This document shows positions 1,574-53,397 of a stretch of DNA of 64,000 nt, one piece after another. The notes beneath the pieces were generated by a model. The model did no database searches. It was given only the letters and a program-made list of their open reading frames with translations, and was not told the DNA's origin. This stretch comes from Azotobacter vinelandii CA (lineage in GTDB: Bacteria > Pseudomonadota > Gammaproteobacteria > Pseudomonadales > Pseudomonadaceae): positions 1,178,001 to 1,242,000 of the forward strand of contig NC_021149.1 of the NCBI RefSeq assembly GCF_000380335.1, in the 5' to 3' direction. Position numbers and translations under genes: made by a program. Each line of letters opens with the position of its first letter. Within the stretch, counting starts at the first letter, position 1.

Positions 1574-2599
1574 GGCTATGTCTGAGTTAGCTGTTGCAGC
1601 AGGCTAAGCTGATCATGGCGTCTCTGCATGCGGGAGGTGGATCATGAAAGCGAGTCAGTTCACGCGATGGATCGCTCAGCTCTCCAACCTCAGCCCGGAA
1701 CAGCGTGAGCAGCTGAAGGCATGCCTGTCGGCACCAGGCAGCCTTCCGCAGGAGATGATCGCCACGCCCAGCAGTTGCCCGCACTGTCAGTCCAGCGAGT
1801 TACAGCCGTGGGGCTCCAGTGGCGGCCTGCCACGGTATCGCTGCAAGTTTTGCGGCAAAACCAGCAACCCATTGACGGGTACACCGATGGCGCGCCTGCG
1901 AAAGCGCCATCTCTGGCAAGGCTATGCCGAGGCGTTGACCCAGAGCCTGACGGTACGCAGGGCGGCGAAACACTGTGGCGTCAGTAAGAACACAGCCTTC
2001 CTGTGGCGACACCGGTTCCTGACCCAGATCGCCGATCACCAGGCTCAGCATGAGTCCGGGATTGTCGAGGCCGATGAAACCTTCTTCCTGGAGTCTTTCA
2101 AGGGACAGCGAGACTTGCCGCGCCCACCTCGCAGGCGCGGAGGCAGCGCGAAGCAACGCGGGTTGTCTGCCGAGCAGATTCCTGTCCTGGTGGTGAGAGA
2201 TCGCAGCGGCCAGCATGCCGACTTTCAGCTGAAGAAGCTCGATGCCGTGCATGTCAGGGAGCGACTACGCCCCCTGATCGATGCTGATGCGATTCTTTGC
2301 TCTGACAGTGCCGCCGTCTATGCCCACTTTGCCAAGGCAGAAGGCATCACCCATCAGCCGGTCAATCCGAGCCAGAAGCGCAGGGTCGATGGGCCTTTTC
2401 ACATCCAGAACGTGAACGCCTATGACAGCCGACTGAAGAGCTGGATGATTCCCTTTCATGGGGTGGCCACCAAGTATCTGACCCATTACCTGGGATGGCG
2501 CCGCCTGCTCGAACGCTACAAGACGCAGCTCAATCCATTGATTTGCTTGAGGGAGGCGCTGGGGCGAGTAGCCATGCAACAGCTAACTCAGACATAGCC
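1574..2599 (+). mobile_element. IS1595-family insertion sequence, complete
   Basis: A 1026-bp element bounded by perfect 25-bp inverted repeats (1574-1598 and 2575-2599), both beginning GGCTATGTCTGAG when read inward. It is flanked by an 8-bp direct repeat TTGCCTAA (1566-1573 and 2600-2607), the target duplication length expected for IS1595. One transposase gene fills the element, and its stop codon lies inside the right repeat. Perfect ends, perfect target duplication and an intact transposase indicate a recent and probably still mobile copy. Confidence 0.95.
1644..2597 (+). CDS. IS1595-family transposase
   Basis: A 317-residue transposase catalysing cut/copy-and-paste movement of its element. 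The N-terminus carries a zinc ribbon (Cys45-x2-Cys48 and Cys67-x2-Cys70), as in the Zn-ribbon plus DDE/DDN layout of IS1595 enzymes. Candidate catalytic residues are Asp144 in [10 protein letters not shown], Asp221 in CSDSAAVY, and Asn256 or Asn258 in [13 protein letters not shown]. The closing segment with [17 protein letters not shown] is typical of the family. A helix-turn-helix-like region precedes the catalytic core ([19 protein letters not shown]). The ATG at 1644 follows a GGGAGGTGG ribosome site. No frameshift or truncation is visible. Confidence 0.95.
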
Positions 2600-2607
2600 T
2601 TGCCTAA
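2600..2607. repeat. Target-site duplication of IS1595 element, right copy
   Basis: TTGCCTAA follows the right terminal repeat and matches 1566-1573 exactly, so the pre-insertion sequence can be reconstructed by removing 1574-2607. Confidence 0.93.
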
Positions 2608-2656
2608 ACTCCCCGATAATCGATCGGCAGGAAAGGCGCCGAAGCGTCCTCTGCAA

Positions 2657-4142
2657 CGTGCCCACGCAGGAGCGCTCGTCGTTATACACAACTCCAGTCC
2701 CCACAGGTCTATACCCAAAAGGGATTCGTGGAGAATGACGATGAACTGGGCAGAGGAGGAAATGCAGACCGCCGACCTGGGCGATGAGCGCCTGAATGTA
2801 CGGGTAGCCAAGGTCCTGGAGCGGTTGGGAGCGCACCCGGGGAGCAGCATTCCCGCGGCCTGCCGGGGCTGGGCGGAAACGATGGCGGCCTATCGGTTCT
2901 TCGACCACGAGAAGGCAACATTCGAGACGGTGCTGACACCGCATCGGGATGCCACGCTGCAGCGCATGGAGTGTTGCCCGGTGGTGTTGCTGGTACAGGA
3001 CACCACCGAGCTCGACAAGTGGGTGAGCCTGGGCCCCAAGGGCGTGGGCACGCTCAAGGAGCAGCAGAAATACCCGCGTCGGTTGCATCCGACCGTGGCC
3101 TTTACCCCAGAACGCATCTGCCTTGGGGTCGTGGAGGCCTTGTGGTGGAGCCGCGACGAACCGAGTCCGCGCAAGGCGCGTCGTGGCAAGGGCGTGGACG
3201 AGAAGGAGAGCCGGCGCTGGATCGACAGTTACCAGGCTAGCTGCGCGTTGCAGGGGCAGATCTCCAAAACGCAATTGGTGAACCTCGCCGATGCGGAAGG
3301 GGATCTGTATGAATGGTTCACCGAGTATGCGGAAGTCGCACCGTCCACGCGGGCGCAGTGGATCGTGCGTGCGGCACAGGATCGACGCGTGCTGACGGGC
3401 GATGCCGACAAGCTATGGGCATCGCTGGCCATGGCGCCGGGTCTGGGGCAGCTCGCCGTCGAGGTCCGGGCACGCCCGAAGCGCCCGGCCCGGCAGGCCC
3501 GGGTCACGTTGCGTTCGGCCACTGTCGTGCTGCGTCCCCCCGCTCGAATCGGTCGCCACTTGCCGGAAGTCTCCGTCAATGCCGTGCTGGCCCGCGAAGA
3601 GAATCCTCCGGAGGGCGTCGAGCCGCTGGAGTGGCTGTTGCTGACCAGCTTGCCGGTGGGCAGCCTGGAACAGGCCTCTACGATTGTCGCCTGGTATGCC
3701 GTGCGCTGGTATATCGAGATTTACTTTCATGTCCTGAAAAACGGCTGTCAGATCAATTGCCTGCAACTGGAAACCGAGGAGCGGCTACTGCCTTGCATCG
3801 GGCTTTACCTGGTGGTTGCCTGGCGAGTGCTGTACAGCCTGATGCTCGGACGTGCCTGCCCGGAGCTGAATTGCGAGTTGATTTTCGAAGCCCGGGAGTG
3901 GCGGGCCGCCTACCTCGTGATCAAGCGCTGCCCACCGCCGCCGGTGCCACCTCGACTGGGCGAGATGGTTGAGTGGGTGGCCGGTCTGGGCGGCTATCTG
4001 GGGCGCAAACACGATGGCCCACCCGGCCCCAAGGCCATGTGGATCGGATTGCAGCGATTGCGGGAGTTTGTCATTGCACTGGAAGCACGCGATGCGCTCG
4101 CCGGAACTTATGTATAACGACGAGCGCAGAAGCGTGGGCACG
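2657..4142 (+). mobile_element. IS4-family (Tn5/IS50-like) insertion sequence
   Basis: Inverted ends at 2657-2688 and 4111-4142 match at 28 of 32 positions. The four mismatches form one block 11 bases from the outside. The inner part of each end (left 2674-2692, beginning CTCGTCGTTATACAC) resembles the 19-bp outside end of Tn5, in which TTATACACAA is conserved. A single transposase gene lies between them and its stop codon falls in the right end. I found no matching direct repeat at either candidate boundary. The exact tip is therefore uncertain: it may be at 2657/4142 or about 17 bp further in. Confidence 0.82.
2735..4117 (+). CDS. IS4-family transposase (Tn5-like)
   Basis: A 460-residue DDE transposase. 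The IS4 signature Y-(2)-R-(3)-E-(6)-K is present exactly (YAVRWYIEIYFHVLK), giving the catalytic Glu. The first acidic residue is probably Asp89 in QDTTELD and the second lies in NLADAEGDLYEW (Asp186 or Asp190). The N-terminal segment (WAEEEMQTADLGDERL, then AACRGWAETMAAYRFF) is the DNA-binding region shared with Tn5 transposase. I chose the ATG at 2735; the frame is open upstream into the preceding IS1595 element, but that part is not family-like. The gene looks intact. It does not belong to the neighbouring IS1595 element. Confidence 0.93.
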   Translation: MTMNWAEEEMQTADLGDERLNVRVAKVLERLGAHPGSSIPAACRGWAETMAAYRFFDHEKATFETVLTPHRDATLQRMECCPVVLLVQDTTELDKWVSLGPKGVGTLKEQQKYPRRLHPTVAFTPERICLGVVEALWWSRDEPSPRKARRGKGVDEKESRRWIDSYQASCALQGQISKTQLVNLADAEGDLYEWFTEYAEVAPSTRAQWIVRAAQDRRVLTGDADKLWASLAMAPGLGQLAVEVRARPKRPARQARVTLRSATVVLRPPARIGRHLPEVSVNAVLAREENPPEGVEPLEWLLLTSLPVGSLEQASTIVAWYAVRWYIEIYFHVLKNGCQINCLQLETEERLLPCIGLYLVVAWRVLYSLMLGRACPELNCELIFEAREWRAAYLVIKRCPPPPVPPRLGEMVEWVAGLGGYLGRKHDGPPGPKAMWIGLQRLREFVIALEARDALAGTYV

Positions 4143-6218: not shown

Positions 6219-7880
6219 TCAGAAATAGCGCACCACCTGCGCCCAGAGCTGCGGCACGCGGCGTTTGTCGCTCTCGGCGTCCTCGTTGCCCAGCCGCCAG
6301 GCCGCCGTGGCGCTGACCCGCCAGCCATGCGTGGCCCAGGCGGCGCCGAGCCCCGCGCCGGACAGATGGCGGTGGTTTTCGCCGTCGTCCCAGGTGTCCT
6401 TGTGCAGCCGCACTTCGCCGTGGTCGACGAAGCTGGAGAACTGCCAGGCGTCGCTCAGCGCATAGCGCAGTTCGAGGTTGGCCAGCCAGCCCTGGTCGCC
6501 GGACGCCTCGCCCTGCGGGTAGGCGCGCACGCCGTAGGCGCCGCCCAGGTAGAGCTTTTCCGAGCTGTCCAGGTTGCCGTCGGCCCACTGCCCCTGCAAT
6601 TGGGCATACAGGCTGAAGCGCTCGGTCAGGCGCTGCAGCCGGGTCAGGCTCGGGCGCAGCACATGGTATTGCCCGGCGATGCCGGCGCTGGCGCGGTCGG
6701 AGTCCTTCTCCTGGCCGCCGTCGAGGTTCAGGCTGCCGTGGCTCCAGTCCAGGGCGAAGGCATAGACGCCGCCGCCGGACAGCCGGTCGCGCCCGCCGCC
6801 GGAAAGGCCCAGGGTGGTGACCCGGAAACGCTTGTCGCTGCGGCTGTCGAACAGATCGATATCGTCCTTCAGGTGCTTGGCATCGAACTGCAGGCGGGCA
6901 TCCAGGGAGAAATCCCGGCGGCGGATCAGCGGCTGGAGGGCGAACAGGCTGGCGATGCGCGCCTCGCCGTGGGCATCGAGATCGCCGAAATCCTTGGAGA
7001 GCTGGTAATCCATGTCCGACCAGGCGACGCCGAAGCGGGTCGCCCAGGGCCCGACCGGTAGTTGATAGGCGACGCGGTAGTAATCCTGATCCTCGTCCGA
7101 ACCCATGGCGCGCAGGCTCAGGCGGTCGCCCAGGCCCAGCGGATTGTCGACGTTCACGGTCGCCCCCAGCCGGTACTCGCCGGTGAAGCGGTTGCCGTAG
7201 TTGTCGGCATCGATGCTGCCGCTGACCAGCCGCTCCGGCCTGGTCTCGACCAGCAGATCGGTGGTACCCGTATCGGCGCCGGGGCGCAACGTCGACTTCA
7301 CCGCCACGCCGGGGGTTTCCTGCAACAGCAGCAGGCTGCGCTCCAGCGGGCCGGCGCGCACCGCCTCGCCGGGCTTGAGGGCGGCCAGCGGGGCCAGGGC
7401 CGAACCGCCGAGGTGCGCCTTGCCGTCGACGCGGATCTCGCCATAACGGCCTTCCAGCACGGCGATCTTCACGACACCGGCCTCGATCTCCTGGGCCGGC
7501 AGATAGGCGCGGGCCAGCGGATAGCCGCGCTCGCGGTACAGGCGGGTGATGCGCCCGGCGCCGGCGCGCAGCTCGCCGAGCGACACCGAGCGGCCCTTGA
7601 GATCGCCGAGCAGCGGCAACAACTCGGCGGCGGGAATGGCGGCGTTGCCGTCGAGAACGAAACCGCGGACCTGCAGGCTCGGCCCGCCGGACTTGACCTC
7701 GGCGGCGGGCGCGTCGGGCAGGTTCAGCTCCAGGGACTGGCGCGGCGGCAATTGCAGCGGCGGCTCCAGGCTCTGCAGGGTCTGGCCGGCGTCCGGCGCA
7801 CTGGCGGCCAGGGCGACGGAGGAGGCGAGCAGGGAAACGGGCAGCAAGGCGACGGACAGCAGACTCGTGGACAGGCGCAT
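6219..7880 (-). CDS. Two-partner secretion transporter TpsB (ShlB/FhaC family)
   Basis: An outer-membrane beta-barrel that exports the adjacent TpsA exoprotein. At 553 residues it has the usual family length. A signal peptide (MRLSTSLLSVALLPVSLLASSVALA) is followed by a Pro-rich linker, a POTRA region around residues 70-150 (with VRGFVLDGN, ITRLYRERGYPLARAYLP), and a second POTRA-like segment. The barrel has family marks such as DADNYGNRFTGEYRLGATV and the loop-6 motif GVRAYPQGEASGDQG, corresponding to VRGY in FhaC. It ends in the aromatic VVRYF expected of outer-membrane barrels. It starts 6 bp downstream of the tpsA stop, so the two are surely co-transcribed. The order tpsA then tpsB is the less common arrangement but is known. 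Confidence 0.93.
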   Translation of the reverse strand: MRLSTSLLSVALLPVSLLASSVALAASAPDAGQTLQSLEPPLQLPPRQSLELNLPDAPAAEVKSGGPSLQVRGFVLDGNAAIPAAELLPLLGDLKGRSVSLGELRAGAGRITRLYRERGYPLARAYLPAQEIEAGVVKIAVLEGRYGEIRVDGKAHLGGSALAPLAALKPGEAVRAGPLERSLLLLQETPGVAVKSTLRPGADTGTTDLLVETRPERLVSGSIDADNYGNRFTGEYRLGATVNVDNPLGLGDRLSLRAMGSDEDQDYYRVAYQLPVGPWATRFGVAWSDMDYQLSKDFGDLDAHGEARIASLFALQPLIRRRDFSLDARLQFDAKHLKDDIDLFDSRSDKRFRVTTLGLSGGGRDRLSGGGVYAFALDWSHGSLNLDGGQEKDSDRASAGIAGQYHVLRPSLTRLQRLTERFSLYAQLQGQWADGNLDSSEKLYLGGAYGVRAYPQGEASGDQGWLANLELRYALSDAWQFSSFVDHGEVRLHKDTWDDGENHRHLSGAGLGAAWATHGWRVSATAAWRLGNEDAESDKRRVPQLWAQVVRYF

Positions 7881-7886
7881 GGCGGA

Positions 7887-10800
7887 TCAGATTCCTTCGG
7901 GCAGGCGGATGCCGGTGTCGATGACCTGGTAGGGGTCGCGTTGCCCGCCCAGAACCAGCGGCTTGCGCTCGTTGTCGTGGACCGAGGCGAGGATGTCGGC
8001 ATAGGCCGCCGGCGGCTGGAAGAGGCGGGACGGTTCGGCGACGACCGGGATGGCCGGGGTTATGGTCAGGCCGCCGGGCAGGTAGGCGATGGCGTAATTG
8101 CCGGAAGTCAGGCCGCCGGCGCTGAGCTCGTAGCCGCCGGCATCGACGGCGCCCTGAGCCGAGCCGCCGTAGACCAGGGTGCCGGACAGCACGGAAGCGT
8201 CCTCGCCCTCGACGAAACCGGAATAGCTGACGCCGTTGCCGCCGCTGAAGGCCAGCCCGTCGTAGGTCTTGCCGGCGTCGTTGGCGGTGATCGTCAGCCC
8301 GGCCTTGCCGATGGTGAGGGTGCCGTCGACATAGCCGATGTCGTAGTTCGACAAGCCCGTGCCATCGGCATTAGCGGCGGTGATGGCGTAGCTGCCGACC
8401 GTCGCGGTCGCCGTCTTGCCGGCGCTGGCGAGATCGACGCGGCCGACCGAATCGCCGTTGACCAAACCCGACACGCTGTAGCCGCTCAAGCTCGCGGTTT
8501 CACCGTAGGTTTTGGAGGCATTGGAGGCGGTGATGGTCAGCCCGGCCTTGCCGACCGTCAGCGAGCCATCGACATAGCCGATGTCGTAGTTCGACAGGCC
8601 CGTGCCGTCGGCGTTGCTGGCGGTGGTGGTGTAGCGGCCGACCATCGCGGTCGCCGCCTCGCCGGTGCTGGCGAGATCGACGCTGCCGACCGAATCGCCG
8701 TTGACCAGACCCGACACGCTGTAGCCGCCCAGGCTCGCGGTTTCGCCGTAGGTCTTGGAGGCATCGGAGGCGGTGATGGTCAGCCCGGCCTTGCCGACCG
8801 TCAGGGTGCCGTCGACATAGCCGATGTCGTAGTTCGACAGACCCGTGCCCTCGGCACCGCTGGCGGCGATGGCGTAGCTGCCGACCGTCGCGGTCGCCGC
8901 CTTGCCAGTGCTGGCGAGATCGACGCTGTTCACGCCGTCGCCGTTGACCAGGCCATCGACCGTGTAGCCGTTCAGACTCGCGGTTTCGCCGTAGGTCTTG
9001 GACGTATCGTTCGCCGTGATCGTCAGCCCGGCCTTGGCCACGGTCAGGGTGCCGTCCACATAGGTGATGTCGTAGTTCGACAGCCCCGTGCCGTCGGCGT
9101 CGCTGGCCGTGATCGTGTAGCTGCCGACCGTCGCGGTGTTGGCCGTGCCGGCGCCGGCCAGATCGACGCCGCTCACGCTGTCGCCGTTGAGCAGGCCATC
9201 GACCGTGTAGCCGTTCAGACTCGCGGTTTCGCCGTAGGTCTTGGACGTATCGCTCGCCGTGATCGTCAGCCCGGCCTTGGCCACGGTCAGGGTGCCGTCC
9301 ACATAGGTAATGTCGTAGTTCGACAGCCCCGTGCCGTCGGCGTCGCTGGCCGTGATCGTGTAGCTGCCGACCGTCGCGGTGTTGGCCGTGCCGGCGCCGG
9401 CCAGATCGACGCGGCCGACCGAATCGCCGTTGACCAGACCCGACACGCTGTAGCCGCCCAGGCTCGCGGTTTCGCCGTAGGTCTTGGAGGCATCGGAGGC
9501 GGTGATGGTCAGCCCGGCCTTGCCGACCGTCAGGGTGCCGTCGACATAGCCGATGTCGTAGTTCGACAGGCCCGTGCCCTCGGCACCGCTGGCGGCGATG
9601 GCGTAGCGGCCGACCGTCGCGGTCGCCGGCTCGCCGGTGCTGGCGAGATCGACGCGGCCGACCGAATCGCCGTTGACCAGACCCGACACGCTGTAGTCGC
9701 TCAGGTTCGCGGTCTCGCCGTAGGTCTTGGAGGCATCGGAGGCGGTGATGGTCAGCGCCGCCCTGTCGATGCTCAGATCGCCGGCGACGTAGGCGATGGC
9801 GTAGTTGGTGGCGCTCAGGCCGCTGGCGGCGATCGCGTAGTCGCCGGCGTTCACCGCGCCCTGCGCCGTGCCGCCATAGCCCAGCGTGCCGGAAAGCACC
9901 GAAGTGTCTTCGCCGTTGACGAAGCCGCTGTAAGTCACGCCATTGCCGCCGCTGTATGCGAGGCCGTCGTAGGTCTTGTCGGCATCGTTGGCGGTCACGG
10001 TCAGCGCCGCCTTGTCGATGCTGACGCTGGCCGTGCCGGCGTAGCCGATGTCGTAGCCCTGCTGGTCGGAATACAGTCCGCCCAGGCCCAGTGTGCCAGC
10101 GGCCAGCGTGTAGCTGCCGGCATTGGCGCTGCCGGTGGTGTAGGTCAGCGTGCCGTCGATCGGGCTGGCGTCGGCGGCGCTGCCGTCGGTCAGCGTGGCG
10201 GTGTAGCCGCTGCCCAGACTGCCCGTGCTGGTGCCGTCGTAGGTCTTGCTCGCGCTGCCGTCGGCCGTCACCGTCACGGCGGTCAGGAAATGGCGCAGTA
10301 GCGGCGTGGTGTCGCCTTCGTAGAGGCGCCAGGTCTTGCCGGTGCCGCCTTCGTCGTCGATGTCCCAGCCGGCGTCGGTGAAGGTGGACAGGGTCTGCAG
10401 TTGCGCCAGGGTCTTGGCCGTGCCATAGGCGTTGCCGGTCCACGCACCGTCGCTGCCGTTGTTGATGGCATTGCCGTCGGTATCGGTGGTGGCGTAGAAG
10501 CTGGCGGTGATGCTGGAATTGTTCGTCCCGACCAGCCCACCGATGTAGTTGGTGCCCGTCACACTGCCGGTGGCATAGCTGTTGCCGATGCTGGCCGTGC
10601 CGCCGTAGGCAAAGTTATCCCCGACCAGCCCGCCCACGTCGTAGTTGCCCGTCACCTTGCCGCTGGCGTAGCTGTCGCTGATGCTGCCGTTGTTGTTGAC
10701 CCCCGCCAGACCACCGATGAAGTTGCCGCCGTAGTAGTCGGTGATGCCGTTGACGTCGCCGGTGGCGTAGGAAGCCTCGATGCTGCCGCTGTTGCTGCCC

Positions 10801-13800
10801 ACCAGCCCGCCGACGATGTATTCGCCGCTGACATCGCCGGTGGCGTAGCTGTACTGGATGCTGCCCGTGTTGTTGCCGACCAGCCCGCCGAGATACTGGC
10901 TGCCGTATTCGCGGCTGACGCCGACGGCCTGCACGTCGCCGGTGGCGTGGCTGTCGCTGATGCTGCCGGCGTTGTAGCCGACCAGCCCGCCACCGTACCA
11001 ACTGGCGCCGCTCACGCTCACGTTCACATCGGCATGGCTGCCGCTGATGGTGCCGGCGTTGTAGCCGGCCAGGCTGCCGATGTAGTAATAGCCGCCGCTG
11101 ACGCTGCCGTCCTCCAGCCCGACGTTGGCGATGCTGCCACTGCTGCCGACGTAGCCGAACAGACCGATGTAGTTCTCGCTGTCGCTGCGGTTGAGGGTCA
11201 GGTCGCTGATGATATGCCCGTTACCGTCAAAGGTGCCGGTGAAGGTGGTGCCGATATCGCCGATCGGGTTGAAGCCGGTGCAATTGCCGCTGCCGTCGCA
11301 GTTCCAGTCGGCAGTGCCGCTGGCGTCGATGTCGTTGGCCAGCGCGAAGTGCGCGCCGAGCAGCGAAGTCGAGGCCATGCCCTGAAGCCCATAGACATCG
11401 GCGATCAGATAGGGGGTGCCGCTGGCTCCGGTGCCGCCGGTCGCCCGGATGAAGGTGGCGCTGGTGGTCAGGCGGAAATCGGTGGCGCTGAACGACGGCA
11501 GGCTGGTGGCGATCTGCCGCCAGGTGCCGGAAGTCAGGGCGAAGGTGCCGACGTCGATCGCGTCCGCCGTCGTTGCCGTGCCCGCTGCTGCCACGGTCAG
11601 CGTGCCGTCGGCGGCGGTCAGCGTGTCGCCCAGGGCGATGTCGCCGCTCGACGTGGTGGTCAGGGTCAGGCTCGACGTGTCGTTCCAGGCGACGGCATCG
11701 CCGATCGTCAGGTCGCCGGCGGCGGTGAGATCGATGTCGCCGGACACGCCGAAGGTGCCGCCGCTGGCGAGCGACAGCAGGCCGCTCGATCCCAGGTTGG
11801 TGTTCAACCCGTAGTCGCCGCTGGCGTCGAGGTAGACGCCGTAGCCGGCGACGGTGGTCAGGTTGTCGAGCGAACTGTTCGACAGGAACGACAGGTCGCT
11901 GTCGCCGTAGCCGCCGAAGGTCGCGATGTAGTTCGTGCGCGTGGCCGTCAGCGTGGCGGCGTCGGTGATCAGGTGGGCGCCCGAGCCATAGATCGACAGG
12001 TTCTGCACCCCGTTGGTGCCGATCACGTCGCTGAATGCCGCCCCATTGGCGCTGCCGTTATCGAGATAGGCGAGCGCCCCGGTGCTCGCCAAGGTATCCG
12101 CGTCGGCCAGGACGTAGTAGTAGCCGTTGGCGCCAGTGCTGGCATAACCGATGGCGCTGCCGTCCGAAATCGCCGTGACCCCGGCGCCGGCCAGGGCGCT
12201 GGTGCCCGCATCGGAATAGGCAAGGCCCGAAACCGCGATCGGCGTCGTCGGATAGCGCCAGCCGAAATAGGGATAGAGATTGGCGCCGGCGCCCCAGATC
12301 GAGGCGGAGAAACCGGTGGGCAGGGTGCCCTGCAACTGTGCCGTGGTCCGGGCGATGGCGTTGCCGTTGCCCCCGCCTATTCCCGATGACTGGCCGGTGG
12401 TTTCGGTGTTCCAGTAACTCAGGACGATGGCCCCGGCGGCATTGTTGTTCCAGCCCACCAGCCCGCCCGGGCCGGTGCCGCTGACATAGCCGGCGGCATA
12501 GCTGGTGACGATGGTGCCGTTGTTGTAATTGACCCCCACCAGTCCGCCGACGTTCGAAGCCGAACCGGTGCCGATCACCGCACCAAGGGAATAGGAATTG
12601 GTGATGGCACCCTCGTTGTGGCCCACCAATCCGCCGATGGGGCCGGCGGCGCCGGTCACCGAGCCGGTGGCGTAAGACTGGCTGATCGTGCCGCCGTCGC
12701 CGGAAAAGCCATTGGCGCCGACCAGACCGCCGATGTAGCCGTATCCAGCGGTCGTATTGGTCCCTGTCACGTTGCCTGTGGCATAAGACTGGGCGATGGA
12801 TCCTCCGTTGAGGAGATAGCCGACCAGCCCGCCGGCCTGATAACCCGCGCCCGTCACATTGCCGCTGGCGGAGGAACTGCTGATGGCACCTCCATCATTG
12901 GCGCCCACCAGGCCACCCGCGTTGGCTTCGCCGGAACTGTTCGCCGAGACCGTGGCGCTCGCGGAGGCATTGGTCACTGAGCCGTCCTGCATGTAACCGA
13001 TCAGGGTGCCGACATCATCATTGCCGGTGACGCTGCCGCCTGCCAGGCCCACATTGCTGATCGTGGCCCCACTGGTATAGCCGAACAGACCCACGTAATC
13101 GGTGGCGCCGCGATCGATGGTCAGGCCGGCGATGGTATGGCTTTGCCCATTGAAGGTGCCGGTAAAGGGGGTGGAATTGTCGCCGATGGGGAAAAAGCCG
13201 CCGGCCCCCCAGATTTCGCCGCTGTTGCTGGCGGTGGCGGCCAGGGACAGGTTGGTGCCCAGCCGGTAGCTGCCCGACGGGGCCAGCGACATCAATTGCA
13301 GCGCATGGGGCGTATGGATGACGGTGGAATATTCGTTGCGCAGCATCGGCCGGGTCTGGCCCGCGATCATCACCCAGGTATTGGTGAAGTCGAAGCCGGC
13401 ATAGGTGGCTTGGGTAAAGGCATTGCTGTTGGCGATGCCGGTGCCGGTGGGGCTGGTGCCCTGGCCGGTGGTGGTCATATCCCAATAGGCATTGGTGGTG
13501 GCGAAGGTGGTGCCGCTATTCGCGACGCCGATCAACCCACCGGCATTGCTGCCGGTGATTGCGCCGCTGGCGTACACATTGCTCAGGGTCGTGGTGGCAC
13601 CGCTGGCCCGCCCGATCAACCCGCCGGCCTGGTCGCCGGCGCTGACCGCCCCGACGGAATAGGAGTCGGATATGCTCACCCCGTAATAGCCATAGCCGGC
13701 CAATCCCCCGGCGGCGTTGACGGTGGCTGTCACGCTGGCCGTGGATGATGAATCGGTCAGGGATGAATCGCCGAACCATCCGGCGATGCCGCCGACTTCC

Positions 13801-16037
13801 TGATACCCGGTCACCGTGCCGGTGATATGGATATTGGTCAGCGTGGTGCCATAGGCATCGCCGATCAGCGCCCCGGTGCGTGCCATGCCGACGATGGCGG
13901 CGTTGGATAGCGTCAGGTCGCGGATGGTGGTGCCGCTGGTGGCGCCGAACAATCCGGTCGCGTTGCTGCTGCGCTTGATGGTCAGCCCGTCGATGGCATG
14001 GCCCAGACCGGCCAGGGTACCGCCGAATTCACTCCCGCCAATGGTGCCGATGGGGGCAAACCCGGCGCCGCCGTTCCACGCGCTGGTGGCGCTGGCGTCG
14101 ATATCCTCGGCCAAGGCGTAATAACCGCTCAGGCTCATGGCCTGCAGGGCGGTGACATCATGGATCAGCGTATAGCTGGCAAGCGAACCGGTCTCGCCGA
14201 TGGACAGCGTGGCGGCGTCCCCCGACAGGGTGATCCGCGCGCCATCGTTGAGGCCGTAGCCTTGCCCGGAACCGTAGGAGAGGACCAGGCCGGCGCTGTC
14301 GCCGGTGGCGGTGATGTCTGCGTCGACGTCGATGTTGCCCGCCGCTTGCAGCGTCAGGACGGTATCTGCGCTCCATTCCACTGCCGAGGCCACGGTGATG
14401 TCGCCGGCCTGGGTGCCGCCCGTGCCGGTGGAGACGGTGACGTTGGCGGTGGACAGCGCGGTTTCCAGGGTGGAGGCGTCGAGCACGCTGTCGTCGCCGC
14501 TGGCGGTGAAGCTGCTGACATTGCTGTCGCCGGTGTCGCTGATGGTCAGGTCGTACGGGTCCAGCAGCAGGTCGCCGGTCCGGCCCTGTTCGGCGGTCAG
14601 GTCGACCTTGCCCTCGAAGGCCAGCACCGCCTTGCCGGAGACTTCCGCCTTGCCGCCGTCGCCGCCCCGCTTGCCGCCTTTCGCGCTGATGCTGCCGGCG
14701 TAGGTGGTCTTCTCGTCCGACCAGACCACGACCTTGCCGCCGTCGCCTTGTTCGGTGGCGTCGGCCTTGAGGGTGGTTTTCGCGTCCACCGTGGTGGTCT
14801 TGGCGTGGGCCAGGGTGCCGGAACCCTGCCAGTCGCCGCCGACCTTGATGGTGCCGCCGCCGGTCGTGCCGCTGGCGTCCAGGGTGGCTCCGGTCAGGGC
14901 GATGCGCCGGCCGGTGACCTCGATGCTGCCGCCGTTACCCTCTCCCCCGGCCCCTCTCCCATGCATGGGAGAGGGGAGGTTGCCCGTGCTGCCGGTGAGG
15001 CCCGCGATCCGGCTCTCCTCTTGTGGGTGTGGAGCGGTAATGCCGAGGGCGTCCGCGGCTTGGCTCCCCTCGCCCGCTTGCGGGAGAGGGGCCGGGGGAG
15101 AGGACAGCGTGGCGCTGGCGTCGAGCGTGCCGGCGACCTGCACGGTGCCTTCGTCGCCGCCGTCGAGGACGATCCGGCCGTTCATCTCGCCGAGGGTTTG
15201 CGCTTCGACGATGCCGTCGTTGTTGACCACGGTCTTCAGCAGGGCGTCGCTGGCCCGGGCGGTCATGATGACCTGGCCGCCGTCGGCCTTGATGAGCTGG
15301 TGGTTTTCCACCAGGGCGTCGGCGGTGGCTTCGTCGACCTGCACGCTGAGCAGGCCGTCGCCGACGAAGTCCAGCGTCACCGCGTTGCCGGCGGCCAGGG
15401 CCACCGTGCCCCGGTTGGCGACTATGGTGCCCCGGTTGCTGACGGTGCCGCCGAGCAGGGCCACGGCGCCGCCGTCGGCGGCGGTGATGTTGCCCCGGTT
15501 GGTGACGGCGGCGTTGCTGCCGTCGCCCTTGAAGCGGTAGTTGCCCTTCTCGAAGTCCTCGTTGGCGATGTCCAGGGTGGAGGCGACCAGTCCGCCGACT
15601 TCTACCTGGGCGTCCTTGCCGAACAGCACGCCGTTGGGGTTGACGATGAAGACCCGGCCGTTGGCTTGCAGGGTGCCCATGATCTTCGAGGCGTCGGAGC
15701 CGGTGACGCGGTTCAGCGCGATGGAGCTGCTGCTCGGCTGGTCGAAGGTCACCTTGTTGTCGGTGCCGATGTCGAAGGATTGCCAGTCGATGGCGACTTT
15801 GGCGGTGGACTGGGAGACGGTCATCTCCTTGCCGGTGGTGGCGATGCCGGCGGCGCCGGAGACGACGTCGCCGCCGCTGGGCAGGTCGGCGGCGAAAGCG
15901 CAGGCGGGGGCGAGGGCGACGACGCTGGCCAGGGCGCGGCAGGCGCCGCCGGGCCTGCCGCGCTGGCGGGCGTGTTCGCTGGCGACTGTCCAGCCGCCCA
16001 GCGAACGGTTCCAGACGATGTTGAAGATCCGGTTCAT
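7887..16037 (-). CDS. Giant TpsA exoprotein (filamentous hemagglutinin-like, 2716 residues)
   Basis: A surface or secreted beta-helical protein exported by the neighbouring TpsB. The N-terminus has an extended signal peptide (ESPR-type MNRIFNIVWNRSLGGWTVASE, cleavage near Ala49). The TPS secretion domain follows, with GVLFGK after NPNG (residues 133-136) and IALNRVTG. Two blocks of GLUG-type repeats (pattern GGLVGxNxGxIxxSYATGxV) lie roughly at residues 745-1205 and 1645-1845. The C-terminal third holds YDG/MBG-type Ig-like repeats, including six near-identical tandem 81-residue units (residues 2092-2577). It closes with a short tail, PYQVIDTGIRLPEGI. The ATG at 16037 follows GGGAGGGAAC. Residues about 312-367 are encoded by an inserted inverted-repeat element. 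I see no C-terminal toxin or protease domain, so adhesion or biofilm is the likeliest role; the target is unknown. Confidence 0.93.
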   Translation of the reverse strand: MNRIFNIVWNRSLGGWTVASEHARQRGRPGGACRALASVVALAPACAFAADLPSGGDVVSGAAGIATTGKEMTVSQSTAKVAIDWQSFDIGTDNKVTFDQPSSSSIALNRVTGSDASKIMGTLQANGRVFIVNPNGVLFGKDAQVEVGGLVASTLDIANEDFEKGNYRFKGDGSNAAVTNRGNITAADGGAVALLGGTVSNRGTIVANRGTVALAAGNAVTLDFVGDGLLSVQVDEATADALVENHQLIKADGGQVIMTARASDALLKTVVNNDGIVEAQTLGEMNGRIVLDGGDEGTVQVAGTLDASATLSSPPAPLPQAGEGSQAADALGITAPHPQEESRIAGLTGSTGNLPSPMHGRGAGGEGNGGSIEVTGRRIALTGATLDASGTTGGGTIKVGGDWQGSGTLAHAKTTTVDAKTTLKADATEQGDGGKVVVWSDEKTTYAGSISAKGGKRGGDGGKAEVSGKAVLAFEGKVDLTAEQGRTGDLLLDPYDLTISDTGDSNVSSFTASGDDSVLDASTLETALSTANVTVSTGTGGTQAGDITVASAVEWSADTVLTLQAAGNIDVDADITATGDSAGLVLSYGSGQGYGLNDGARITLSGDAATLSIGETGSLASYTLIHDVTALQAMSLSGYYALAEDIDASATSAWNGGAGFAPIGTIGGSEFGGTLAGLGHAIDGLTIKRSSNATGLFGATSGTTIRDLTLSNAAIVGMARTGALIGDAYGTTLTNIHITGTVTGYQEVGGIAGWFGDSSLTDSSSTASVTATVNAAGGLAGYGYYGVSISDSYSVGAVSAGDQAGGLIGRASGATTTLSNVYASGAITGSNAGGLIGVANSGTTFATTNAYWDMTTTGQGTSPTGTGIANSNAFTQATYAGFDFTNTWVMIAGQTRPMLRNEYSTVIHTPHALQLMSLAPSGSYRLGTNLSLAATASNSGEIWGAGGFFPIGDNSTPFTGTFNGQSHTIAGLTIDRGATDYVGLFGYTSGATISNVGLAGGSVTGNDDVGTLIGYMQDGSVTNASASATVSANSSGEANAGGLVGANDGGAISSSSASGNVTGAGYQAGGLVGYLLNGGSIAQSYATGNVTGTNTTAGYGYIGGLVGANGFSGDGGTISQSYATGSVTGAAGPIGGLVGHNEGAITNSYSLGAVIGTGSASNVGGLVGVNYNNGTIVTSYAAGYVSGTGPGGLVGWNNNAAGAIVLSYWNTETTGQSSGIGGGNGNAIARTTAQLQGTLPTGFSASIWGAGANLYPYFGWRYPTTPIAVSGLAYSDAGTSALAGAGVTAISDGSAIGYASTGANGYYYVLADADTLASTGALAYLDNGSANGAAFSDVIGTNGVQNLSIYGSGAHLITDAATLTATRTNYIATFGGYGDSDLSFLSNSSLDNLTTVAGYGVYLDASGDYGLNTNLGSSGLLSLASGGTFGVSGDIDLTAAGDLTIGDAVAWNDTSSLTLTTTSSGDIALGDTLTAADGTLTVAAAGTATTADAIDVGTFALTSGTWRQIATSLPSFSATDFRLTTSATFIRATGGTGASGTPYLIADVYGLQGMASTSLLGAHFALANDIDASGTADWNCDGSGNCTGFNPIGDIGTTFTGTFDGNGHIISDLTLNRSDSENYIGLFGYVGSSGSIANVGLEDGSVSGGYYYIGSLAGYNAGTISGSHADVNVSVSGASWYGGGLVGYNAGSISDSHATGDVQAVGVSREYGSQYLGGLVGNNTGSIQYSYATGDVSGEYIVGGLVGSNSGSIEASYATGDVNGITDYYGGNFIGGLAGVNNNGSISDSYASGKVTGNYDVGGLVGDNFAYGGTASIGNSYATGSVTGTNYIGGLVGTNNSSITASFYATTDTDGNAINNGSDGAWTGNAYGTAKTLAQLQTLSTFTDAGWDIDDEGGTGKTWRLYEGDTTPLLRHFLTAVTVTADGSASKTYDGTSTGSLGSGYTATLTDGSAADASPIDGTLTYTTGSANAGSYTLAAGTLGLGGLYSDQQGYDIGYAGTASVSIDKAALTVTANDADKTYDGLAYSGGNGVTYSGFVNGEDTSVLSGTLGYGGTAQGAVNAGDYAIAASGLSATNYAIAYVAGDLSIDRAALTITASDASKTYGETANLSDYSVSGLVNGDSVGRVDLASTGEPATATVGRYAIAASGAEGTGLSNYDIGYVDGTLTVGKAGLTITASDASKTYGETASLGGYSVSGLVNGDSVGRVDLAGAGTANTATVGSYTITASDADGTGLSNYDITYVDGTLTVAKAGLTITASDTSKTYGETASLNGYTVDGLLNGDSVSGVDLAGAGTANTATVGSYTITASDADGTGLSNYDITYVDGTLTVAKAGLTITANDTSKTYGETASLNGYTVDGLVNGDGVNSVDLASTGKAATATVGSYAIAASGAEGTGLSNYDIGYVDGTLTVGKAGLTITASDASKTYGETASLGGYSVSGLVNGDSVGSVDLASTGEAATAMVGRYTTTASNADGTGLSNYDIGYVDGSLTVGKAGLTITASNASKTYGETASLSGYSVSGLVNGDSVGRVDLASAGKTATATVGSYAITAANADGTGLSNYDIGYVDGTLTIGKAGLTITANDAGKTYDGLAFSGGNGVSYSGFVEGEDASVLSGTLVYGGSAQGAVDAGGYELSAGGLTSGNYAIAYLPGGLTITPAIPVVAEPSRLFQPPAAYADILASVHDNERKPLVLGGQRDPYQVIDTGIRLPEGI
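8307..9764 (-). repeat. Six tandem 243-bp coding repeats in tpsA
   Basis: Six direct repeats of exactly 243 bp (81 codons) run head to tail. Each unit begins with (K/R)A(G/A)LTIT, carries SKTYGETA and NYDI, and ends in a TLTV-type strand. Neighbouring units are nearly identical at DNA level, notably 9016-9258 against 9259-9501. The pattern suggests recent expansion or homogenisation of MBG-type domains, and copy number probably varies between strains. Confidence 0.92.
14939..15103. repeat. REPIN/MITE-like inverted-repeat element inserted in frame in tpsA
   Basis: A 165-bp segment bounded by perfect 22-bp inverted repeats (14939-14960 and 15082-15103), both reading CCTCTCCCCCGG inward. The left end contains a further perfect 26-bp palindrome (14951-14976); the right end contains a near-palindrome around CGCTTGCG. 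The same CCTCTCCCCCGGC wording recurs in the gatB-gatA gap at 50341-50387. The segment translates to a Pro/Gly-rich stretch unlike the surrounding beta-helix (SSPPAPLPQAGEG to SPMHGRGAGGEG) and keeps the reading frame. Confidence 0.8.
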
Positions 16038-48860: not shown

Positions 48861-50309
48861 TCAGCCTTCGAGCTTCTTCTTCAGCAGTTCGTTGACCTGG
48901 CCGGGGTTGGCCTTGCCCTTGGAGGCCTTCATCGCCTGGCCGACGAAGAAGCCGAACATCTTGGCGCGCTTGGCCTCGTCGGCGGCGCGGTACTGTTCGA
49001 CCTGGGCGGCGTTGGCGGCCAGCATCTCGTCGAGCATGCTCTCGATGGCGCCGGTGTCGGTGACCTGCTTCAGGCCCTTCCGCTCGATGATCGCATCGGC
49101 GCTGGCGCCTTCATCGGCGGCCAGGGCCTCGAAGACCATCTTGGCGATCTTGCCGGAGATGGTGTTGTCCTGGATGCGCCGGATCAGTCCGCCGAGCTGT
49201 TCGGCGGATACCGGCGAGCGCTCGATCTCCAGGCCTTCCTTGTTGAGCAGGCTGGACAACTCGCCCATCACCCAGTTGGCCGCCAGCTTGGCATCGCCGC
49301 AGACCTCGAAAACCGCCTCGAAGTACTCGGCCATCTCGCGGCTGGCCGACAGCACGCTGGCATCGTAGGCGGACAGACCGTACTGGCTCTGGAAACGCTC
49401 GCGTTTCTGGTTGGGCAGCTCGGGCAGGGTTTCGCGCAATCGCTCGACGAAACCGTCCTCCAGCACCACCGGCAGCAGGTCGGGACAGGGGAAGTAGCGG
49501 TAATCGTTGGCTTCCTCCTTGCCGCGCATGGAGCGCGTCTCGTCCTTGTTCGGATCGTACAGGCGGGTTTCCTGGATCACCTTGCCGCCGTCCTCGATCA
49601 GCTCGATCTGCCGTTGGATCTCATGGTTGATCGCCTTCTCGATGAAGCGGAAGGAGTTGACGTTCTTGATCTCGGCGCGGGTGCCGAAGGCTTCCTGGCC
49701 CCTGGGTCGCACCGAGACGTTGCAGTCGCAGCGTAGCGAACCTTCGGCCATGTTGCCGTCGCAGATGCCGAGGTAGCGGACCAGCGCATGGATCGCCTTG
49801 ACGTAGGCGACCGCCTCCTTGGCCGAACGGATGTCCGGCTCGGAGACGATTTCCAGCAGGGGCGTGCCGGCGCGGTTGAGGTCGATGCCGGTCATGCCGT
49901 GGAAGTCCTCGTGCAGGCTCTTGCCGGCGTCTTCCTCCAGATGCGCGCGGGTGATGCCGATGCGCTTGAGCGTGCCGTCCTCCAGGGTGATATCCAGGTG
50001 GCCCTTGCCGACGATGGGCTTGTCCATCTGGCTGGTCTGGTAGCCCTTGGGCAGGTCCGGGTAGAAGTAGTTCTTGCGGGCGAAGACGTTGGTGTGGCCG
50101 ATTTCCGCCTCGATGGCCAGGCCGAAGCGGACCGCCATGCGCACGGTTTCCTCGTTGAGCACCGGCAGGGTGCCGGGCATGCCGAGGTCGATCAGGCTGG
50201 CCTGGGTGTTGGGCTCGGCGCCGAAGGCGGTGGCGCTGCCGGAGAAGATCTTCGAGCGGGTGGCGAGCTGTGCGTGGATTTCCAGCCCGATCACGGTTTC
50301 CCATTGCAT
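48861..50309 (-). CDS. gatB: Asp-tRNA(Asn)/Glu-tRNA(Gln) amidotransferase subunit B
   Basis: Part of GatCAB, which amidates misacylated Asp-tRNA(Asn) or Glu-tRNA(Gln). At 482 residues it has the family length. The N-terminus [22 protein letters not shown] is diagnostic, with [22 protein letters not shown] and the tRNA-kinase-like Cys/His region CDCNVSVRP. The C-terminal YqeY-like tail ends [17 protein letters not shown]. The ATG at 50309 has GAGGA upstream. It lies downstream of gatA with a 106-bp gap that contains a REP-like element. Confidence 0.96.
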
Positions 50310-50340
50310 CTGTGTGTTCCTCGAATCTGGTGGCATGCGG

Positions 50341-50390
50341 CCCCTCTCCCGGCCCTGCGGGCCACCCTCTCCCCCGGCGGGGAGAGGAGC
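50341..50390. repeat. REP-like palindromes in the gatA-gatB gap
   Basis: Arms CCTCTCCCC (50366-50374) and GGGGAGAGG (50379-50387) with a 4-base loop, beside GGCCC/GGGCC (50351-50355, 50359-50363). Shares CCTCTCCCCCGGC with the element inside tpsA at 14939-15103, so it belongs to the same dispersed repeat family. Confidence 0.7.
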
Positions 50391-50415: not shown

Positions 50416-51866
50416 TCAATATCCTTCCGGTGCCCGCTGGTGCCAGTCGGTCGCCTGCTGGTACTGGTGGGCGACGTTGAGCAGACGGCTCTCCTGGAAG
50501 TAGGGCGCGAGCAATTGCACGCCCACCGGCAGGCCGTCGACGAAGCCGGCCGGCATGGACAGGCCGGGAATGCCGGCGAGGTTGGCGGTGATGGTGTAGA
50601 TGTCCTCGAGGTAGGCGGCGACCGGGTCGTCGCCCTTCTCGCCGAGCTTCCACGCCGGGTTCGGGGTGGTCGGGCCGAGGATCAGGTCCACCTCCTGGAA
50701 GGCGCCGATGAAGTCGCTGCGGATCAGCCGGCGGATCTTTTGCGCCTTGAGGTAGTAGGCGTCGTAGTAGCCGGCGGAGAGGGCGTAGGTGCCGACCATG
50801 ATGCGCCGCTTCACTTCCGCGCCGAAGCCTTCGCCGCGCGAGCGCTTGTACAGGTCCTCGAGGCTCTGCGGGTTCTCGCAGCGGTAGCCGAAGCGCACGC
50901 CGTCGAAGCGCGACAGGTTGGAGGAGGCCTCGGCCGGGGCGATCACGTAGTAGGCGGGGATCGCATGCTGCATGCTGGGCAGGCCGATTTCCTTCACCGT
51001 GGCGCCGAGCTTCTTCAGTTCCTCGACGCAGGCCATCACCGCATCGGACAGGCGCGGATCGAGGCCGGCGCCGAAGTATTCGCGCGGCAGGCCGATGCGC
51101 AGGCCGGCCAGCGGCCGGTGCAACGCGGCCAGGTAATCGTCCACCGGCTGATCGACGCAGGTGGAGTCCTTCGGGTCGAAGCCGGCCATGGCGGAGAGCA
51201 GCAGGGCGCAGTCCTCGGCGCTGCGCGCCAGCGGGCCGCCCTGGTCGAGGCTGGAGGCGTAGGCGATCATGCCCCAGCGCGAGACGCGGCCGTAGGTGGG
51301 CTTGAGGCCGGTGAGGTTGGTCAATGCCGCCGGCTGGCGGATCGAGCCGCCGGTATCGCTGCCGGTGGCCGCCGGGACCAGCCGCGCCGCCACCGCGGCG
51401 GCCGAGCCGCCGGAGGAGCCGCCGGGGACGCATTCGGTGTTCCAGGGGTTTCTCACCGGGCCGTAGTGGCTGGATTCGCTGGCCGAGCCCATGGCGAACT
51501 CGTCCATGTTCAGCTTGCCGAGGCTCACGCAGCCGGCGGCGGCGAGTCTCTCCACCACGGTGGCGTCGTAGGGGGCGATGAAGTCGTCGAGGATCTTCGA
51601 GGCGCAACTGGTGCGCACGCCCTTGGTGCAGAACAGGTCCTTGTGGGCGATCGGCGCGCCGAGCAGGGCGCCGCTCTCGCCGGCGGCGCGCCGCGCATCG
51701 GCGGCGCGGGCCTGCTCCAGGGCCTGCTCGGCGGTGACGGTGATGAAGCTGTTGAGCCCGGGGTCGAGTTCGGCAATGCGGGCCAGCAGGGCCTCGCTCA
51801 GCTCGACGGAGGAGAATTCCTTGGCGGCCAGGCCGCGGGCGATTTGCGCCAGAGTCAGTCGATGCA

Positions 51867-51867
<1 letters not shown>
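50416..51867 (-). CDS. gatA: Asp-tRNA(Asn)/Glu-tRNA(Gln) amidotransferase subunit A
   Basis: The amidase subunit, 483 residues. Amidase-signature Ser-cisSer-Lys triad: Lys in [13 protein letters not shown], the cis-Ser in [13 protein letters not shown], and the nucleophile in [16 protein letters not shown]. The glycine/serine region matches GatA closely, and [20 protein letters not shown] is family-specific. The start at 51867 overlaps the gatC stop (TGATG); a GTG one codon earlier is also possible. It hydrolyses glutamine to give ammonia to GatB. Confidence 0.96.

Positions 51868-53397
<1,530 letters not shown>

Follow-up and report, generated by a model that had tools for sequence, protein, structure and literature searches.

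Intrastrand-triplex repeats named PIT, an earlier description of which is said to be that of Hoyne et al., are the closest described counterpart of the element considered here, a 165-bp palindromic segment lying in frame within tpsA, the gene of a two-partner-secretion (TPS) exoprotein, in a 64,000-nucleotide stretch of Azotobacter vinelandii CA (NC_021149.1, positions 1,178,001 to 1,242,000; this whole stretch is called the window). The segment is very probably a tolerated in-frame insertion of a TM_ECO/PIT-type pair in a loop of TpsA, with a mover other than a REP-associated tyrosine transposase (RAYT) indicated. The three-arm design was published as TM_ECO, earlier PIT, and the accessible part of that report (Holder et al. 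2015, PMC4666352) gives the strict pattern CCCTCNCCCN3-6GGGNGAGGGN3GGGNGAGGG, and describes the repeats as always intergenic in Escherichia coli MG1655. TM_ECO repeats have been tied to genome instability. The tpsA pair resembles TM_ECO/PIT in the three-arm design, the core letters, the inverted pairing, the many copies and the occurrence in many proteobacteria, but it lies in frame in a gene, and its arms are longer than those of the strict pattern.

Palindromic or triplex-forming repeats within genes have been described in other families. The Rickettsia palindromic elements (RPEs) of about 150 bp (Ogata 2000, 2002, as cited in the available parts of PMC10969869 and PMC3733652) are inserted in frame in protein genes, as is the tpsA pair; however, they belong to another sequence family and other hosts, and the triplex repeat is rarely in frame (1 of 33 clusters of the source genome). 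GTAG/CGTC REPs also lie inside open reading frames (ORFs), where dimers occur, and a copy in recB occupies nearly the same site in two Xanthomonas species, according to the available text of Di Nocera 2013 (PMC3733652). Those repeats are tagged stem-loops tied to tyrosine transposases, whereas neither a tag nor such a tie was found for the tpsA units. Triplex-forming purine repeats of Acinetobacter, reported mostly from coding regions, share with the tpsA units the location in coding sequence, but they are plain purine tracts of at least 20, and the palindromic three-arm motif was not found in the accessible portion of that paper (PMC5472653). The Pseudomonas REPINs (Bertels and Rainey 2011, PMC3116915) form inverted doublets and tandem clusters like the triplex-motif units. 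In the available part of that paper they adjoin RAYT genes, an adjacency that was not found for the triplex-motif units.

The segment, its parts and its host gene are as follows.
14939..15103, no strand assigned: inverted pair of triplex-motif units, 165 bp, in frame in tpsA
14936..14976, minus strand (tpsA coding strand): unit 1, triplex motif of three arms, 12 nt each, with loops GC and CCG and no mismatch
15064..15103, plus strand: unit 2, three-arm design as in unit 1, degenerate
14979..15063, no strand assigned: spacer between the units, 85 nt
7887..16037, minus strand: tpsA, two-partner-secretion exoprotein, 2716 aa (ORF and domain scan)
tpsA product, by residue: ESPR 1-49; TPS domain 52-303; GLUG and MBG repeats (domain scan)

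The two inverted arms (14939-14978 and 15064-15103) were 40 nt long each and 83% complementary. Read by eye, their outer 22 nt paired perfectly, and a perfect 26-nt palindrome was present at 14951-14976. When positions 14938-15104 were folded as single-stranded DNA, a z of -5.65 was obtained, and none of 200 shuffles folded equally well. The length of 165 nt equals 55 codons, touching 56, inside the 2716-aa ORF. Proline made up 14.3% of the insert (56 codons touched) and 0.8% of the rest of residues 51-480, while glycine was only slightly in excess (19.6% against 15.8%). The translation of the insert predicts the tryptic peptide IAGLTGSTGNLPSPMHGR. An earlier interpretation made from the letters alone (the sequence-only reading) had claimed perfect 22-bp inverted ends, an inner 26-bp palindrome and a preserved frame, all of which were confirmed; its description of a Pro/Gly-rich stretch unlike the surroundings held for proline and was weak for glycine. 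Terminal inverted repeats, as in a miniature inverted-repeat transposable element (MITE), were present. A target-site duplication was not evident by eye at the segment ends, for which the aligned homologues offered no close empty site, even the nearest one having diverged too far to give junctions at base level.

Exact hairpins of the family numbered 64 in the 5.37-Mb genome against none in a reversed-pattern control, so that the genome search suggested with the sequence-only reading did yield further copies. Copies of the family measured about 40 nt and were built of three arms: one C-rich, one complementary to it, and a last one, G-rich, mirroring the second. Unit 1 showed the full succession of C-arm, loop, G-arm, loop and mirror G-arm with 12-nt arms and 0 mismatches, and not one of 100 shuffles of the tpsA region contained any motif with arms of at least 8. 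A chance palindrome as the origin of the segment was ruled out by the copy number and by the reversed-pattern and shuffle controls. Within the source genome, 26 copies at fetched loci fitted the strict TM_ECO pattern exactly. In a genome search the tpsA arms were 95% identical to other longer-arm copies, which share clusters with strict TM_ECO copies at two loci (L041 and L043). Judged by its letters, the tpsA pair is a longer-arm relative of TM_ECO, set apart from the strict form. Triplex folding of the tpsA units is putative, the computed folding being that of a hairpin.

A further hairpin of the same core was located in the window.
50341..50389, no strand assigned: variant hairpin, intergenic, between gatB and gatA
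The ORFs around it extend from 48861 to 50336 and from 50416 to 51870; the names gatA and gatB come from reading of the sequence, not from a family scan. The sequence-only reading had placed the same core here. An intergenic copy was indeed present, but in a variant form, next to which the script found no third arm.

Units were arranged in the genome as forward-reverse (F-R) pairs, R-F pairs, tandem arrays and singles. Among 16 F-R gaps at five loci of the source genome, 12 fell within 73-93 nt; by that measure the tpsA gap is 93 nt. Tandem arrays of units or pairs were seen at 5304459-5305475 (L038), 4415996-4416611 (L039), 2014122-2014791 (L028) and 4425162-4425557 (L041), and the near-identical spacers within them therefore point to local amplification. 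Identical 16-nt repeat flanks in opposite orientation were shared by L181 (5064529) and L188 (4646382), and by L177 (497074) and L178 (4989309), which suggests that these copies sit in inverted duplicated segments. A body common to the pairs, as in a MITE, was not found. The tpsA spacer was compared with 21 other F-R spacers, and 19 comparisons gave p > 0.05; what speaks for a shared body is limited to two borderline, uncorrected p values (L039_2322, 0.005; L095_1441, 0.045) and to a single whole-length genome match to the segment, of 69%, to the same L039 array.

Alignments at the tpsA site covered 17 TPS loci, among them L076, a paralogue from the same genome, and 28 of 33 fetched homologues; because L051 and L195 are one gene, 44 distinct homologues were compared. 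None of the 44 showed the segment at this site, and most have 5-6 residues separating the conserved motifs DAS and GG. The orthologue check suggested with the sequence-only reading thus left the segment without a counterpart. As with an RPE, an in-frame palindromic repeat is found in a gene whose homologues are without it. From these alignments we infer that the segment was probably inserted, rather than lost in all relatives.

Stop codons were rare in the repeat. Among 50 single units taken from the fetched loci of the source genome, 42 were open in all six frames and 8 had one closed frame, as compared with 245 of 660 random 40-mers of the same loci that were open in all six; five of the six frames of the 165-bp segment were open. 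With a length divisible by three and units nearly free of stops, an insertion in a loop can be read through. According to the explanation favored here, an inverted pair of TM_ECO/PIT-type repeats would have entered a loop of the TpsA beta-helix, or been assembled there, adding about 55 unstructured residues that protrude from the helix and leave its stacking unbroken. The insert would have survived because of its length and its near lack of stops in six frames. TpsA is presumably still made and secreted, with an effect close to neutral. The repeat family, the copy number, the frame and the absence in the aligned homologues are observations in this explanation, while the unstructured loop is a prediction.

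The loop was taken from an AlphaFold model of TpsA residues 1-500 built with 18 aligned sequences. The predicted local distance difference test (pLDDT) score was below 50 throughout residues 312-366 (block means 25-47) and about 90 in the flanking blocks, and strands were modelled on both sides of the insert, at 304-306 and 371-375. The best match among solved structures was the EtpA secretion domain (TMt 0.94), the alignment running to 440 columns for a target of 383 residues; the surplus columns presumably represent the insert. The model suggests that residues 312-366 are disordered. As modelled, the insert is more like an extruded loop of the secretion-domain beta-helix than a hinge between domains, and it would not separate domains because the beta-helix continues past it.

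A RAYT-like gene and a repeat next to it in the source genome bear on the question of the mover.
L045 2333-2833 (genome 1585832-1586332): RAYT-like gene, the only Y1_Tnp match of the genome, split between two frames
L045 2291-2308: GTAG-tagged repeat just upstream of the RAYT-like gene
Thirteen genomic sites matched the GTAG-tagged repeat with no more than one mismatch (control, 0). Since its pattern was drawn from the L045 sequence itself, that first match is no independent test, and the dispersal in the genome was shown separately; the name GTAG REP was given by likeness to PMC3733652.

The sequence-only reading had taken the segment for a REPIN/MITE-like element. Inverted pairing, local tandem arrays and copy number do resemble those of REPINs as described in the available part of PMC3116915, and hairpin and Y1_Tnp counts were correlated over 119 genomes of the bacterial family (rho 0.33, p 2e-4, uncorrected for kinship and genome size). 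Against mobilization by a RAYT, no GTAG or CGTC tag was seen when the unit sequences were read by eye, and the sole Y1_Tnp match of the source genome is not only split between two frames but adjoins a repeat of another family. In addition, the top Y1_Tnp match was taken from each of 30 genomes of the bacterial family, and no hairpin of this repeat lay within about 1.5 kb (less at contig ends) of any of these loci; some of them look IS200-type, so that fewer than 30 RAYTs were covered. No Y1_Tnp match was obtained in 5 of 33 genomes with at least 50 hairpins, and 6 genomes with at least 3 Y1_Tnp matches hold at most 2 hairpins. The REPIN/RAYT identity was accordingly not supported, as the search for a cognate RAYT flanked by a hairpin of this repeat, in these 30 loci and in the source genome, yielded none. 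A RAYT is unlikely as the mover of the triplex-motif repeat, and we give little credence to a RAYT-mobilized REPIN/MITE in tpsA. We know of no mover of TM_ECO repeats. The path of the insertion is a separate matter. The units could have inserted separately, or one unit could have been copied in inverted form by template switching, instead of both arriving in a single 165-bp element; this route concerns the path only and is compatible with a tolerated insertion. Pair spacers differ among loci, and single units are common, in frame too, but the grouping of 12 of 16 F-R gaps in 73-93 nt hints at a preferred pair geometry, and the spacer had no match in the homologues. Such a stepwise origin is possible, though the odds lean somewhat against it.

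The sequence-only reading had further offered co-option, as a domesticated flexible hinge, and tolerance as alternatives. Selection might keep the insert as a flexible aid to secretion or display of TpsA, and its proline richness, its probable lack of structure and its position right behind the Pfam TPS domain agree with this. However, no aligned homologue kept the insert, the beta-helix resumes after it without a separation of domains, and similar peptides result wherever such repeats are translated in frame. A co-opted linker is therefore improbable. The hinge gave way to a predicted unstructured loop inside a continuing beta-helix, which was seen in no second genome, and tolerance was the better supported half. 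Several observations, together with the correlation of hairpin and Y1_Tnp counts, nevertheless weigh against a tolerated insertion of a TM_ECO/PIT-type pair. Both tpsA units miss the strict TM_ECO pattern, and unit 2 is also degenerate, being overlooked by the triplex scan at up to one mismatch. The spacer is not common to other pairs, so that the insert may not have come as one unit. Unrelated extra residues were present at the site in L066 and L204, and fewer in L208 and L209, while L058, L062, L217 and L218 were too diverged there to judge. The homologues diverge at the site by about one-third or more, which makes the exact ends of the segment uncertain by several bases. As the insertion was seen in one genome only, its near-neutrality lies beyond a conservation test. 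Low pLDDT is equally expected where an alignment is shallow, here 18 sequences, and offers no homologue of the stretch, and residues 403-409 also scored low.

Copies in frame were sought elsewhere by testing whether the base composition to either side of a cluster was that of coding sequence. Only the tpsA cluster spanned coding sequence among the 33 clusters of the source genome, which are those among the matches listed; three exact hairpins in fetched DNA (366715, 4067892 and 4508331) went unrecognized by the cluster script. The tpsA copy thus departs from the intergenic location reported for E. coli, which is a habit of the repeat and no defining trait, and the other 32 clusters failed the test. 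Among further loci, 3 of 56 clusters spanned coding sequence (59 loci, some overlapping; L153 is from the source genome). The counts in relatives were 0 of 39 (G103), 0 of 13 (G011), 1 of 25 (G043), 0 of 21 (G122) and 0 of 2 (G143); they cover two 400-kb blocks and the listed places of three further relatives, and are partly the same places as the 56 clusters. The following proteins carried the repeat in frame.
L142 (G143), ORF 3-2855: biotin-dependent carboxylase-type protein, inverted pair between the CT_A_B and CT_C_D matches
L147 and L264: two VgrG-type proteins, the name being based on the domains Phage_GPD, Phage_base_V and Gp5
L102: MmeI-type methyltransferase
L304 947-5320: Pseudanabaena galeata plasmid gene, methyltransferase next to drmD, pair by eye
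L305 1034-4039: Pseudanabaena galeata plasmid gene, DUF559, pair by eye
The L142 protein is presumably urea carboxylase. In the plasmid searches 3 of 32 best places lay under an annotated gene, among the matches listed (12 and 20, some records in both), and one Azospirillum plasmid gene overlapped a repeat match there. In E. coli, all 60 records listed, of 5,715 matching records, had no feature under the best place.

The VgrG loop between KQPQVLEE and GYRNxF was compared in L147 and in the 30 best loci of a search in which 90 of 119 genomes had a match. Best matches to a repeat-bearing query favor repeat-bearing loops, and the query, L306, is one of the nine positives. Nine of the 31 loops scored 33-50 against the repeat, beating each of 300 letter shuffles, and the other 22 scored at most 22; plain loops mostly had 14-15 residues. 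The hairpin was kept in L147, L306, L308 and L320, and the loops of L315, L317, L318, L321 and L333 look like decayed repeats. The nine span four genera and, counted by the loop flanks, may represent up to six separate insertion events.

Other features of the window and the genome were noted in passing.
6219..7880, minus strand: tpsB-like gene immediately downstream of tpsA, for an outer-membrane partner of 553 aa (name given from reading and position)
Two overlapping transposase-like ORFs were read in the window at 1644-2597 and 2495-4117. Matches to nifH over the cut-off were present in all four Azotobacter genomes examined; the source genome had three, one with a TGA within the matched stretch.

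Searching the literature by title and start of abstract, we found among the papers listed no earlier report that places the palindromic triplex motif within coding sequences or shows it using one protein loop repeatedly. We tentatively propose, at slightly less than even chances, that triplex-motif repeats are mobile palindromes of a widespread, protein-coding class; in hosts ranging from Pseudomonadaceae to cyanobacteria they would enter genes in frame with a preference for exposed loops, strike the VgrG loop repeatedly, decay to linkers and serve as a source of new loops. In-frame copies with empty homologues, together with the VgrG loop in several genera, would provide insertion events of known target that are useful toward the mechanism. 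Odd peptides rich in Pro and Gly, of the PSPxxGRGxGGEG type, that occur in unrelated proteins may be read as translated repeats, not as conserved motifs.

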